Below, in pieces: positions 28,242 through 32,842 of a DNA stretch of 35,372 nucleotides. Position 1 is the stretch's first letter. Each line of letters starts with the position of its first letter. The notes beneath the pieces were generated by a model. It was not told the origin of the DNA, ran no database searches, and saw nothing but the letters and a program-made list of their open reading frames with translations. The position numbers and the translations under genes were made by a program. Source of the DNA: Bacillota bacterium (GTDB taxonomy: Bacteria; Bacillota; Limnochordia; Darwinibacteriales; DTU012); the NCBI GenBank assembly GCA_012521185.1, contig JAAYMV010000063.1, forward strand, positions 1-35,372, read 5' to 3'.

Positions 28242-29930
28242 ATGAGAATTATTGGAATTGATGTTGGCGGTACCAATACGGATGCCACATTACTCAGTGA
28301 AGATGGGCAAGTTTTGGCCATGGCTAAGGTGCCGACTAATCATCATGACATTTTTGCGAGTACCAAAACTGCACTAGAGGAGATTTTGCAAGTCCACCAA
28401 GGTTCTCAGCCAGTTAAGCTACAGCTCTCTACTACACTGTCAACTAATGCAATTGTTGAAGGTACTGGACAGGCAACGGCAGTTTTAGCGATTCCCGGAC
28501 CAGGATTGAATTTACAAGATTTCGGCTTTGATTTTCCCCTCTATACTTTGCAAGGGTATATTGATCATCGTGGTCGAATTATCCAAGAAGTAGATGAGCA
28601 AGAAGTAATTAGCGTAGCTAAACAGGCATTAGCTGAGGGAGCTGAAGCCTTAGCAATCGTTGGTAAATTTAGTCAGCGCAATAGCAGATTGGAAAAAAGA
28701 GTCAAGGGAATCATTGAACAAGCAGCCTTACCCTTTGAACAGCTGACATTGGGTCATCAATTATCTGGTAGGTTAAATTTTCCGCGAAGAATAGTAACTG
28801 CTTATTTTAATGCGCGGGTAACTAAGGTACAAACGGATTTTGCTAAAATGATTGAGGAATTACAAGCCAAATATCCTTTGATAGCCCAGGTACAGATTTT
28901 AAAAGCCGATGGGGGTACGATGAGTTTAGCAGAATCTTGCCAGCGACCAGTTGAAACAATTCTATCGGGTCCAGCTGCCAGTATCATGGCTGCTCAAGCT
29001 CTTTCAAGTTATCAGAATACTAACCAAGTAGTAGTGGATATTGGTGGAACTACTACTGATATAGCAATTATTGTTGGCGGAGAATCCTTACAGCAGCGTA
29101 ATGGCGCTGAAATCGGCGGATGGAAAACTTTGGTTCCCGGATTGCTAACCTACTCTTTAGGCTTAGGCGGGGACAGTGAAATTCATCTTTCCGAACATGG
29201 ACTTAAACTAGGACCACGCCGAGCAGGGACACCAGTAGCTTTAGGCGGCAATGCTGTTACACCCACTGATGCAGCGGTGGCTTTAGGACTAACTAGCGTT
29301 GGTCAGCGTAACCTGGCAATTGCAGGTTTGAGTAAGCTAACAAATAGTAAGTATAATACTTGGCAAAAATTAGCAGAAGCTATCGTTGATGCCTTTGTTA
29401 ATCAGTTATGCACAGGAATTAAGGAAGTTTATCAAAGCCTAGAAAATGTTCCGGTTTATACTGTGTCCGAAATCTTAGCTCCACCTGATATTAGACCGCG
29501 AGTTTTGGTCGGCTTAGGTGCTCCAGCATCAGTGTTTATTCCTTTAGTAGGGAAAAAATTAGCTTTGCCTTACGAAGTCTTGCCTTACCATGCTGGTGCT
29601 AATGGGATCGGAGCAGCTGCTTCTCGGGTTACGATCAGTATTACTTTACATGCAGATACTGAGCGAGAATTATTAGTTATTCCGGAGTTAGGCCTAGAAC
29701 AAACGATTCGGCGTAATCTGTTATTTGATTTAAAACAGGCGCGGGAAATAGCTGTGGAGCAGCTAACTAATTATGCTAAACAATTAGGAATTGAAGATTA
29801 CGGTGAGGTTCAAATTGCGGAGGAAGAAGTATTTAATATGGTAAGAGGCTTTCATACTGTTGGTCGAATTTTTCATTTACGGGCTCAGATTCGGCCGAAG
29901 GTTTATCCGGTGGTAGGTGAAAAATCATGA
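28242..29930 (+). CDS. Hydantoinase/oxoprolinase A-like protein
   Basis: The 562-residue protein is an ASKHA-type ATP-dependent amidohydrolase subunit. Its N-terminal domain has IGIDVGGTNTDATLL (phosphate-1 loop) and STTLSTNAIVEG; the Hydantoinase_A core includes ADGGTMSL, ILSGPAASIMAA, VVDIGGTTTDIAII and GLGGDSEI. HyuA-type enzymes hydrolyse cyclic amides such as hydantoins or 5-oxoproline, usually with a HyuB partner. Here no HyuB gene is present, and the next gene, overlapped by ATGA, encodes a deacetylase-family protein instead. The C-terminal end is shorter than in full HyuA. ATG 28242 follows GGAAGGTAGG, a weak Shine-Dalgarno. Confidence 0.88.
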   Translation: MRIIGIDVGGTNTDATLLSEDGQVLAMAKVPTNHHDIFASTKTALEEILQVHQGSQPVKLQLSTTLSTNAIVEGTGQATAVLAIPGPGLNLQDFGFDFPLYTLQGYIDHRGRIIQEVDEQEVISVAKQALAEGAEALAIVGKFSQRNSRLEKRVKGIIEQAALPFEQLTLGHQLSGRLNFPRRIVTAYFNARVTKVQTDFAKMIEELQAKYPLIAQVQILKADGGTMSLAESCQRPVETILSGPAASIMAAQALSSYQNTNQVVVDIGGTTTDIAIIVGGESLQQRNGAEIGGWKTLVPGLLTYSLGLGGDSEIHLSEHGLKLGPRRAGTPVALGGNAVTPTDAAVALGLTSVGQRNLAIAGLSKLTNSKYNTWQKLAEAIVDAFVNQLCTGIKEVYQSLENVPVYTVSEILAPPDIRPRVLVGLGAPASVFIPLVGKKLALPYEVLPYHAGANGIGAAASRVTISITLHADTERELLVIPELGLEQTIRRNLLFDLKQAREIAVEQLTNYAKQLGIEDYGEVQIAEEEVFNMVRGFHTVGRIFHLRAQIRPKVYPVVGEKS

Positions 29931-31258
29931 TTAAAGCTAAGCAGCGTGTCGGATTAATCTTTTTTCCGGCTTTTGATTGGTGTATTACGCCAGATCATCC
30001 TGAAAGACAGGAACGTTTATTGTATACTCGGGATCAGATTCAGGAAGAGGGTTTGCTGGATATTTCTGGAATCGAGGAATATCGGCCTTATTTAGCTGAG
30101 GATCACCAGATTGCCCGCAGTCATATTTGTGTGCCTAGTATTGAAAGAAGGATTACTGAGTCTCATCGAATTGCAGCTGGTGGAACTATTTTAGCTGCTG
30201 ATTTAGTGTTAGACGGTAAGGTAGATCGTTCATTTGCTTTACTGCGTCCTCCAGGACATCATGCTAATCGGATTGTTCATGGCAGTCGTGGTTTTTGTAC
30301 GATTAATAACGAAGCAATTATGGTGGAGCATATTCGTCAACGCAAAGGATCAGATATAAAAATCGCCATTGTGGATACAGATGCACATCATGGAGATGGA
30401 ACCCAGGATATTTTCTATAATGATCCTGGTGTACTTCATATTTCTTTGCATCAGGATGGTAGGACTTTGTATCCAGGCACAGGTTTTGTCGCTGAACGGG
30501 GCGGGCCGGCAGCCTATGGACAAACTATTAACATTCCTTTGCCGCCAGGAACGGGTGATGAAGGAATTCTGTATGTGATGGAAAACTTAGTAATGCCTAT
30601 TTTAGCAGAATGGCAGCCTGATTATATTATTAATGCAGCCGGACAGGATAATCATTATTCAGATCCATTAACTAATATGAACTTCAGTGCTAGAGGTTAT
30701 GCTAGATTAACTGAATTATTAAATCCAGATTTTGTTGTATTAGAAGGCGGCTATTCCATTGAAGGAGCTCTGCCTTATGTAAATGTGGGGATTATCTTAG
30801 CCTTAGCTGGACTAGATTATGCTCATTTGAAGGAACCTGATTGGGATCTAACTCGAGTTCGGCAATCAGCAGCTGTAATGGATTATATTCAGCAGTTAGT
30901 AGTGGAAATGAAAGAATTATGGGATACCAGACAAGAAGTGGATTTGAAACAGGTTTTTGGCCAGAAGCCGTTCTTTACTAGACAGAGAGAAATTTATTAT
31001 GACACAGATGGAATAGCTGAGCAACAAGATGAAAAAATTAAGCTTTGCCAGCAGTGTGCTGGTTGGCGCTGGATCTATTCAACAGCGGTCAGAGCTAGAG
31101 CTATGACAACTAGGATTGCAGCTGTGCTTATACCTTGGCAGGTTTGCCTTGAGTGTGAAAAAGAGGCTCAAACTTATTATCGTAGCTTAGCTAAGAATAG
31201 TGAATTTGATCAAGTCTTTTATCAGGATCCAGAAAAAAATGTTTATTTAAGCAAGTAA
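29927..31258 (+). CDS. Histone-deacetylase-family amidohydrolase with C-terminal CxxC pairs
   Basis: The first about 320 residues are an arginase-fold deacetylase domain: RPPGHHA (catalytic His pair), the zinc ligands in VDTDAHHGDGTQ, a third ligand region AGQDNHYSDPL, and GGYS with the transition-state Tyr. Bacterial members (AcuC, acetylpolyamine and acetoin-type deacetylases) act on small molecules or acetyl-lysine proteins, not histones. A C-terminal extension has two CxxC pairs (Cys374/377 and Cys407/410), suggesting an extra zinc site not found in typical AcuC. ATG 29927 overlaps the hydantoinase stop (ATGA). No terminator follows; the mgtE promoter begins five bases after the stop. Confidence 0.87.
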   Translation: MIKAKQRVGLIFFPAFDWCITPDHPERQERLLYTRDQIQEEGLLDISGIEEYRPYLAEDHQIARSHICVPSIERRITESHRIAAGGTILAADLVLDGKVDRSFALLRPPGHHANRIVHGSRGFCTINNEAIMVEHIRQRKGSDIKIAIVDTDAHHGDGTQDIFYNDPGVLHISLHQDGRTLYPGTGFVAERGGPAAYGQTINIPLPPGTGDEGILYVMENLVMPILAEWQPDYIINAAGQDNHYSDPLTNMNFSARGYARLTELLNPDFVVLEGGYSIEGALPYVNVGIILALAGLDYAHLKEPDWDLTRVRQSAAVMDYIQQLVVEMKELWDTRQEVDLKQVFGQKPFFTRQREIYYDTDGIAEQQDEKIKLCQQCAGWRWIYSTAVRARAMTTRIAAVLIPWQVCLECEKEAQTYYRSLAKNSEFDQVFYQDPEKNVYLSK

Positions 31259-31262
31259 ATAA

Positions 31263-31291
31263 TTGCCATTAAAACCGGGAAATGCTATAGT
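31263..31291 (+). promoter_or_regulatory. mgtE promoter
   Basis: TTGCCA (31263-31268) and TATAGT (31286-31291) are separated by 17 bases, and a TG at 31283-31284 extends the -10 box. The likely start near 31298 gives a leader of about 200 bases before mgtE. Confidence 0.75.
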
Positions 31292-31324
31292 GGAGAAGAG
31301 ACTACGGAAAGGGAGGTAAAATAA

Positions 31325-31426
31325 GTGGACGAAGGCGGGCTTAGTATTAAGACGAACAATTTAGAAGAACATACCATCTTAGTCAGCCTCAGCTCACTAA
31401 TTTTACCAACCTTAGGCTGCAACTAA
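31325..31426 (+). CDS. Putative 33-residue leader peptide upstream of mgtE
   Basis: A GTG at 31325 stands seven bases after GGGAGGT (31312-31318) and opens a frame of 33 codons to TAA at 31424-31426. The peptide starts MDEGGLSIK, has an acidic NNLEEH in the middle and a hydrophobic end (ILVSLSSLILPTLGCN). It has no resemblance I recognise. Its good Shine-Dalgarno, location between promoter and mgtE, and overlap with the long leader hairpin make a regulatory leader peptide more likely than a free-standing protein. Acidic and proline codons are features of magnesium-sensing leader ORFs known in enterobacteria (mgtL, corL), but this one is not a homologue. Expression is unproven. Confidence 0.5.
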   Translation: MDEGGLSIKTNNLEEHTILVSLSSLILPTLGCN

Positions 31427-31463
31427 GATGATGGTTCTTCCAAATGTAATTCTGTTCGTTTTT
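31349..31463 (+). promoter_or_regulatory. Long structured hairpin in the mgtE leader, terminator-like end
   Basis: Four nested helices can be traced: AAGACGAAC (31349-31357) with GTTCGTTTT (31454-31462); ATTTAGAAGAAC (31359-31370) with GTTCTTCCAAAT (31434-31445), one mismatch; CATCTTAGT (31375-31383) with ACTAAGATG (31422-31430); CAGCCT (31384-31389) with AGGCTG (31414-31419). The apical loop is 24 bases. The last arm runs into TTTTT (31459-31463). It could act as an attenuator before mgtE. I do not find the M-box consensus on the plus strand. Confidence 0.65.
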
Positions 31464-31498
31464 ATACTCCGGGATTAATCTAAAAGGAGGATAAAAAC

Positions 31499-32842
31499 AT
31501 GAGAAGAATTGATTTTTCAACCTTAAATCGCTTAGTTGAAGCCAAACAGCTCAAACCCTTGAAAGAGGCACTTGCTGATTTTAATGTGGTGGACTTAGCA
31601 AATTTTATTGAGCAATTAAATCGAGAAAGTGTGGTTTATGCTTTTCGCGCTTTGCCGAAAGACATTGCTGCACAAGTTTTTTCTTATTTATCTTTTGAGA
31701 GTCAGGAGTTTATTGTTCAATCCATTACAGATCAAGAAATCGGCCATATTATTAATGATTTGTTTTCTGATGATGCAGCAGATTTAATTGAAGAACTGCC
31801 AGCTAATGTTGTAAAAAAGGTATTGCGGAATGCCTCGCCAGAGGTGCGAAACACTATTAATCAATTATTACAATACCCTGCTGAATCAGCTGGCAGCATT
31901 ATGACTGCTGAATTTGTTGATTTAAAAAAACACATGACTGTTGGTGAAGCTTTTGCCCGGATTAGACGTACCGCCTTTGAAAAAGAAACTGTTTATACTT
32001 GTTATGTAATTGATGAACATCGTCGGCTTGAGGGAGTTATTTCGGTAAAAAGATTATTGGTAACTCCAGATGATACTATATTAAGCCAAGTGATGGAAAC
32101 TAACATTATTAAAGTAACGACTACTGATGACCAGGAGTTAGTAGCTCATTTATTTGCTAAATATGGGCTTTTATCATTACCCGTAGTTGACCATGAAAAT
32201 CGTTTAGTAGGAATTGTAACTATTGACGACGTAATTGATGTTATTCATGAAGAGGCTACCGAGGACTTTGAACGAATGGCCGCTATGTTGCCTTCGGAGA
32301 AGCCTTATTTAAAGACTAGTGTTTTGTCTTTGGCTAAAAATCGATTTGCTTGGCTATTATTTTTGATGGTATCTGGCATGATCGTTGGTTCAATTTTAGC
32401 AAAGTATGAAGAAGCTTTTGTAGCCATTCCTTTGTTGGTTACTTTTATTCCCATGTTAACTGATACTGGTGGTAACGCCGGTTCTCAAAGTTCAACTCTA
32501 GTTATTCGGGGAATGGCCTTATCGGAGATTAGGGTAGGAGATTTTCTCAAGGTATTTTTTAAGGAATTTCGTGTTAGTTTAATTGTTGGTTTAGGACTTT
32601 CAATTGCAAACTTCATTCGGATAATGATTTCATATAAAGATCCAATGATTGCCTTAACCGTTTCCTTAAGCTTATATTTAACTGTTGTTATTGCTAAAAC
32701 TGTTGGGGGAATTTTACCAATCTTCGCTAAATTGGTGAAAGCTGATCCAGCAATTATGGCGGCACCGATTATTACAACGGTAGTTGATGCTTTATCATTG
32801 ATGCTCTATTTTAGAATAGCAGTTGTTTTATTAAAGCTCTAA
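31499..32842 (+). CDS. mgtE: Magnesium channel MgtE
   Basis: MgtE is a homodimeric magnesium channel gated by intracellular Mg2+. The 447-residue protein has the N-domain with the helical repeats (DDAADLIEELP), two CBS domains (YPAESAGSIMTAEFVDL and VVDHENRLVGIVTIDDVIDVI), the plug helix and five transmembrane helices with the pore motif PMLTDTGGNAGSQSS. All parts that bind regulatory Mg2+ are present, so the protein looks functional. ATG 31499 follows AAAAGGAGG (31482-31490). Its leader of about 200 bases holds a short ORF and a long hairpin, so synthesis may also be controlled at RNA level. A strong terminator overlaps the stop. Confidence 0.95.
   Translation: MRRIDFSTLNRLVEAKQLKPLKEALADFNVVDLANFIEQLNRESVVYAFRALPKDIAAQVFSYLSFESQEFIVQSITDQEIGHIINDLFSDDAADLIEELPANVVKKVLRNASPEVRNTINQLLQYPAESAGSIMTAEFVDLKKHMTVGEAFARIRRTAFEKETVYTCYVIDEHRRLEGVISVKRLLVTPDDTILSQVMETNIIKVTTTDDQELVAHLFAKYGLLSLPVVDHENRLVGIVTIDDVIDVIHEEATEDFERMAAMLPSEKPYLKTSVLSLAKNRFAWLLFLMVSGMIVGSILAKYEEAFVAIPLLVTFIPMLTDTGGNAGSQSSTLVIRGMALSEIRVGDFLKVFFKEFRVSLIVGLGLSIANFIRIMISYKDPMIALTVSLSLYLTVVIAKTVGGILPIFAKLVKADPAIMAAPIITTVVDALSLMLYFRIAVVLLKL

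Follow-up and report, generated by a model that had tools for sequence, protein, structure and literature searches.

A probable leader-peptide attenuator of the magnesium transporter gene mgtE in Bacillota, and acidic upstream ORFs before mgtE across the phylum

In enterobacteria, mgtA and mgtB are controlled by ribosome-destabilising leader peptides, and a related upstream ORF (uORF) is present at corA. To our knowledge, Mg2+ sensing by such peptides has so far been described only for E. coli and its relatives. In Bacillota, mgtE is controlled by the M-box (ykoK leader, RF00380), an RNA aptamer. The destabilising motif of MgtL, the leader peptide of mgtA in E. coli and Salmonella, is EPDP at residues 2-5 and leads to ribosome drop-off (PMC11282234). 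In Salmonella mgtQ, which lies between mgtC and mgtB, the acidic codons Asp2 and Glu5 destabilise the ribosome, and a 2:3 stem then releases the mgtB ribosome-binding site (PMC8092293). CorL of corA likewise is a uORF in the leader of a Mg2+ transporter gene, and its translation is inverse to transporter expression; it differs from the locus described here in being Rho-dependent and enterobacterial and in having fewer acidic residues (PMC11552253). The mgtE motif of Thioalkalivibrio is also a structured mgtE leader that includes the Shine-Dalgarno (SD) sequence, but it is set apart by its description as a riboswitch candidate of one proteobacterial genus (PMC11109978).

The window analysed here is a stretch of 35,372 nt from a Bacillota genome; the features of the leader and mgtE given below are located on its plus strand. 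It contains mgtE (31499-32842), encoding a magnesium transporter of 447 amino acids (TIGR00400, 476 bits; PF01769, PF03448; MgtE, MgtE_N and CBS domains). The region 31263-31498 consists of a promoter and a leader of about 200 nt up to the mgtE start. The promoter boxes TTGCCA (31263-31268) and TATAGT (31286-31291) are separated by a 17-nt spacer, agree with the consensus at 10 of 12 positions and are found at the same position in relatives. The SD sequence of mgtE, GGAGG, is located at 31486-31490. Both the promoter and a structured leader of this length had been proposed in a sequence-only reading of this DNA, and both were confirmed. No CorA was found in the window's own genome. Directly upstream of the promoter, a histone-deacetylase-family protein is encoded (29927-31258), which has two CxxC pairs in a C-terminal extension.

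Nowhere in the window did a match to an Rfam family attain the gathering score. An M-box (covariance-model score >44 bits taken as a match) was found neither in the window, at gathering score or at E<=10, nor in the whole genome, in line with the earlier statement that the leader is not a recognisable M-box. An M-box or another Rfam family was therefore rejected as the identity of the leader. Like the M-box, the leader would control mgtE in Bacillota, but the aptamer itself is absent. A mobile or repeated element was also rejected, as the genome contains no second copy.

The leader contains a long hairpin (31343-31468) with a minimum free energy of -42.3 kcal/mol, and none of 200 dinucleotide-shuffled versions reached this stability (z = -7.9). 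Its basal stem, P2, pairs 31343-31358 with 31453-31468, and folding places three apical helices above it (31359-70/31434-45, 31375-83/31422-30 and 31384-92/31411-19). The long hairpin of four nested helices read earlier from the sequence was thus recovered. Comparable leaders before mgtE comprised 15 sequences, namely that of the window and 14 others, all belonging to a single family within the window's order. In all 15, the hairpin bounded by P2 was more stable than expected (z -3.7 to -8.6). In their alignment, 94.7% of P2 cells were paired, compared to 36-51% in slid controls. Covariation in related mgtE leaders had been named in the sequence-only reading as a check, and it is present in P2: both partners have changed in 7 of its 15 pairs, and no shuffle out of 500 did as well.

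Within the leader we identified a uORF of 33 codons (GTG...TAA, 31325-31426) encoding the peptide MDEGGLSIKTNNLEEHTILVSLSSLILPTLGCN, with the N-terminus MDEGGLSIKTNNLEEH. The GTG start is located eight bases after an SD sequence, AGGGAGG (31310-31316). Acidic residues cluster at residues 2-3 and 15-16 (D2, E3, E15, E16), and the first 18 codons are acid-rich. The uORF is present and open in 15/15 leaders, has 31-42 codons and ends 31-90 nt before mgtE; indels near its start are multiples of three. Over the first 31 codons there were 0 stops in the uORF frame, while the two alternative frames contained 20 and 38, and D/E made up 55 of 255 residues at positions 2-18 versus 16 of 244 in the rest of the peptide, counts that are not independent because the 15 sequences are related. 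At least two acidic residues were found in codons 2-18 of every leader. The uORF is presumably translated. Neither this uORF nor the competing helices P1 and P3 appeared in the sequence-only reading.

Helix P1 pairs 31309-31344 with 31378-31413 and covers the SD sequence and start codon of the uORF. P1 complementarity was found in 15/15 leaders (mean z -2.6), with a partner sequence that differs in many; covariation of P1 is not shown by the alignment of the 15 leaders. Pairing of the uORF SD sequence was also seen in 38 loci outside the close group (mean z -2.3). Helix P3 pairs 31458-31470 (GTTTTTATACTCC) with 31486-31498 (GGAGGATAAAAAC) and closes the mgtE SD sequence. In P3, 96% of the cells of the 15 leaders were paired; the helix is nearly invariant and for this reason gives no covariation test. 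The RNAalifold consensus retained P2 and reduced P3 to CUCC:GGAG. P1 crosses P2, and P2 and P3 share a strand, so that only P1 and P3 are compatible. In a folding model of the growing transcript, P1 formed first and was replaced by P2 only after about position 31460.

The leader is missing in five close relatives (L060, L062, L068, L055 and L053). There, the start of mgtE takes the place of the uORF start downstream of the same promoter, most clearly in L060, L062 and L068, and the bases between SD sequence and start codon differ from the P3 sequence in all five. In a further locus, L054, the leader, which is on the reverse strand and some 100-200 nt ahead of mgtE, looks decayed, with an indistinct uORF start and an altered P3 strand.

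The effect of translation on the leader was modelled by masking a ribosome footprint at successive uORF codons and refolding the RNA. With the ribosome at codons 2-4, P2 had a probability of 0.63-1.0 in 15/15 leaders, and it was lost at codon 12 in most. In the window, P2 reached 0.91-0.95 at codons 1-4, fell to <=0.01 at codons 6-20 and returned with the ribosome at codons 24-28; in a longer window fragment it reached only about 0.5-0.6. With the ribosome at the uORF stop codon, P1 and P3 formed. The mgtE SD sequence was only partly freed with the ribosome at codons 2-4, a small opening because the 4-bp CUCC:GGAG pairing persisted. These folding models suggest that uORF translation may set alternative structures of the leader.

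Taken as a whole, the leader is very likely a control element of the attenuator type. We favour, with some reservation, an attenuator of mgtE that works through a leader peptide like MgtL or MgtQ. As in these systems, an SD-supported short ORF directly precedes a Mg2+ transporter gene, and acidic (and Pro) residues are found near the N-terminus, with D/E at residue 2 absent in 5 of the 15 close leaders (MTG-, MVPD-, MAS-). MgtL further shares the alternative leader RNA structures, and its EPDP at residues 2-5 compares with MDADP, METDP and MDPDP at Bacillota loci. It differs in that its target is a P-type ATPase gene, on which it acts through Rho-dependent termination, whereas the window has an MgtE gene, belongs to another phylum and carries a 3' platform that covers the transporter SD sequence. 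The likeness to mgtQ lies in an acidic, translation-aborting uORF with a strong SD sequence, and in the switching scheme: a ribosome sitting on region 1 allows the 2:3 stem to sequester the anti-RBS, so that the transporter RBS becomes accessible (PMC8092293), as proposed here for P1, P2 and P3. However, mgtQ has 8 codons inside an operon, and the 33-codon uORF of the window lies in a 5' leader that has a long hairpin and a promoter of its own. The likeness is one of layout. The peptides are too short to compare, and we assume convergence with enterobacterial mgtL/mgtQ and not common descent.

According to this model, a ribosome would initiate on the uORF and, at low Mg2+, drop off in the acidic stretch by intrinsic destabilisation, as on E. 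coli MgtL. Ribosomes would then be present only at the uORF start, where they would block P1 and leave the downstream RNA free to fold P2. P2 would take up the strand GTTTTTATAC, otherwise the partner of the mgtE SD sequence, and mgtE would be translated. At high Mg2+, ribosomes would traverse the uORF and break the 5' arm of P2, P1 would re-form behind them, and P3 would close the mgtE SD sequence and turn mgtE off. The assignment to the MgtL/MgtQ type is based on anatomy and sequence; we infer the Mg2+-dependent drop-off, which is its defining biochemical feature, as well as the Mg2+ response and the direction of switching. The claim of a new Mg2+-responsive attenuator class in the sequence-only reading can be kept as far as an attenuator-type, non-M-box and covarying leader is concerned. 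The evidence speaks for a switch with a translated leader peptide rather than for a class made of RNA only.

To see how widespread such uORFs are, 92 Bacillota mgtE loci were surveyed and SD-supported uORFs were scored for D/E at residue 2. An acidic second residue was found in 51 of 137 uORFs before mgtE (37%) versus 33 of 606 control ORFs (5%; Fisher 1.4e-20), and in 40 of 96 uORFs without the close group. Since the criterion had been chosen after looking, 60 fresh loci were taken. Here, 40 of 107 uORFs and 37 of the 60 loci had an acidic residue 2 (p = 1.5e-17 against the same control ORFs and 9.7e-5 when the reverse strand of these regions served as the control, values that overstate independence because some loci come from related genomes). 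Recurring N-termini were MDADPGSS, MDGDPGSR, METDPGRS, MDPDPSRN and MDPLPR. The cultured isolate Gemmiger sp. An120 (L029) also has an acidic leader peptide at mgtE, MDPSGKPRSRR. Upstream of CorA, which served as a specificity control, 5 of 32 uORFs had an acidic second residue, a number too small to judge specificity. Acidic-start uORFs before corA were seen in L126 (-209, MDGGPSREGYW), L128 (-248, MDDRIGLWGDMD) and L136 (-287, MDADRQETNQ), positions being relative to the CorA match. At seven loci (L082, L083, L074, L093, L094, L097 and L107), an M-box above the Rfam gathering score is followed by a uORF with an acidic N-terminus before mgtE; tandem sensing of Mg2+ by RNA and ribosome is possible there. 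We found no report of uORFs of this kind before mgtE in Bacillota in the open-access literature.

The leader could instead act on transcription, with P2 as intrinsic terminator and P1 as antiterminator, so that full translation of the uORF prevents termination. A T5 tract after the core of the P2 stem and the mutual exclusion of P1 and P2, with P1 forming first, fit this explanation. The hairpin had been described as running into T5, and both were found; the tract does not follow the stem, though, as it is paired within the extended basal stem, where AGTAT/ATACT pairs lie beyond it. Two-sided changes occur in 4 of the 5 P2 pairs 3' of the U-tract, and P2 therefore matters in transcripts that extend beyond it; a terminator would have no use for these outer pairs. 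P3 accounts for the U-tract as well. A terminator scan found no intrinsic terminator, and a simple terminator with a GC-rich hairpin and an unpaired U-tract was rejected on these grounds. Between uORF and mgtE, an intrinsic terminator was present at only 1 of 55 acidic-uORF loci, so that other platforms, Rho included, are conceivable at those loci. Moreover, if drop-off is caused by low Mg2+, the importer would in this scheme be on at high Mg2+. We consider transcription attenuation unlikely. The evidence points to control at the mgtE ribosome-binding site rather than by a terminator hairpin, with an output that would be translational rather than transcriptional.

A leader-peptide attenuator might also respond to another signal, such as amino-acid starvation, tRNA charging, EF-P or the general state of translation. 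The same anatomy would serve, Ser codons are frequent, and Salmonella mgtM and mgtP respond to ATP and charged tRNA-Pro (PMC8092293). Against this, what the loci share across the phylum is the acidic N-terminus, a feature known to be destabilising, upstream of a Mg2+ transporter gene, and such a signal appears rather improbable. Still less probable is a ribosome-independent riboswitch, in which Mg2+ itself changes the RNA fold and the ORF has no role. The strong structure and the precedent of the M-box at mgtE would suit it, but the ORF is conserved with coding constraint in 15/15 leaders, and acidic uORFs precede mgtE phylum-wide in RNA that is otherwise unrelated. Furthermore, the hairpin interior has no conserved aptamer-like core. 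The leader is not an aptamer and probably not a terminator. A role of the uORF product as a functional small protein with MgtE as its target is hardly credible despite the small regulatory peptides of the Salmonella mgtCBRU operon, as the C-terminal halves of the peptides vary within the close group and overlap RNA helices.

It appears reasonably likely that MgtE is governed throughout the phylum Bacillota by Mg2+ sensing through ribosome-destabilising leader peptides, which arose independently of enterobacterial MgtL and sometimes lie behind an M-box, and that the window represents a three-helix translational version. About half of the Bacillota mgtE loci sampled have an acidic leader peptide upstream of the gene, and these peptides offer many natural variants for asking which nascent sequences destabilise ribosomes. 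If this is true, mgtE genes without an M-box would be explained, and where a uORF is stacked behind an M-box, a single gene would have two Mg2+ sensors, the RNA and the ribosome. Mg2+ sensing by the ribosome itself would then be a widespread bacterial strategy.
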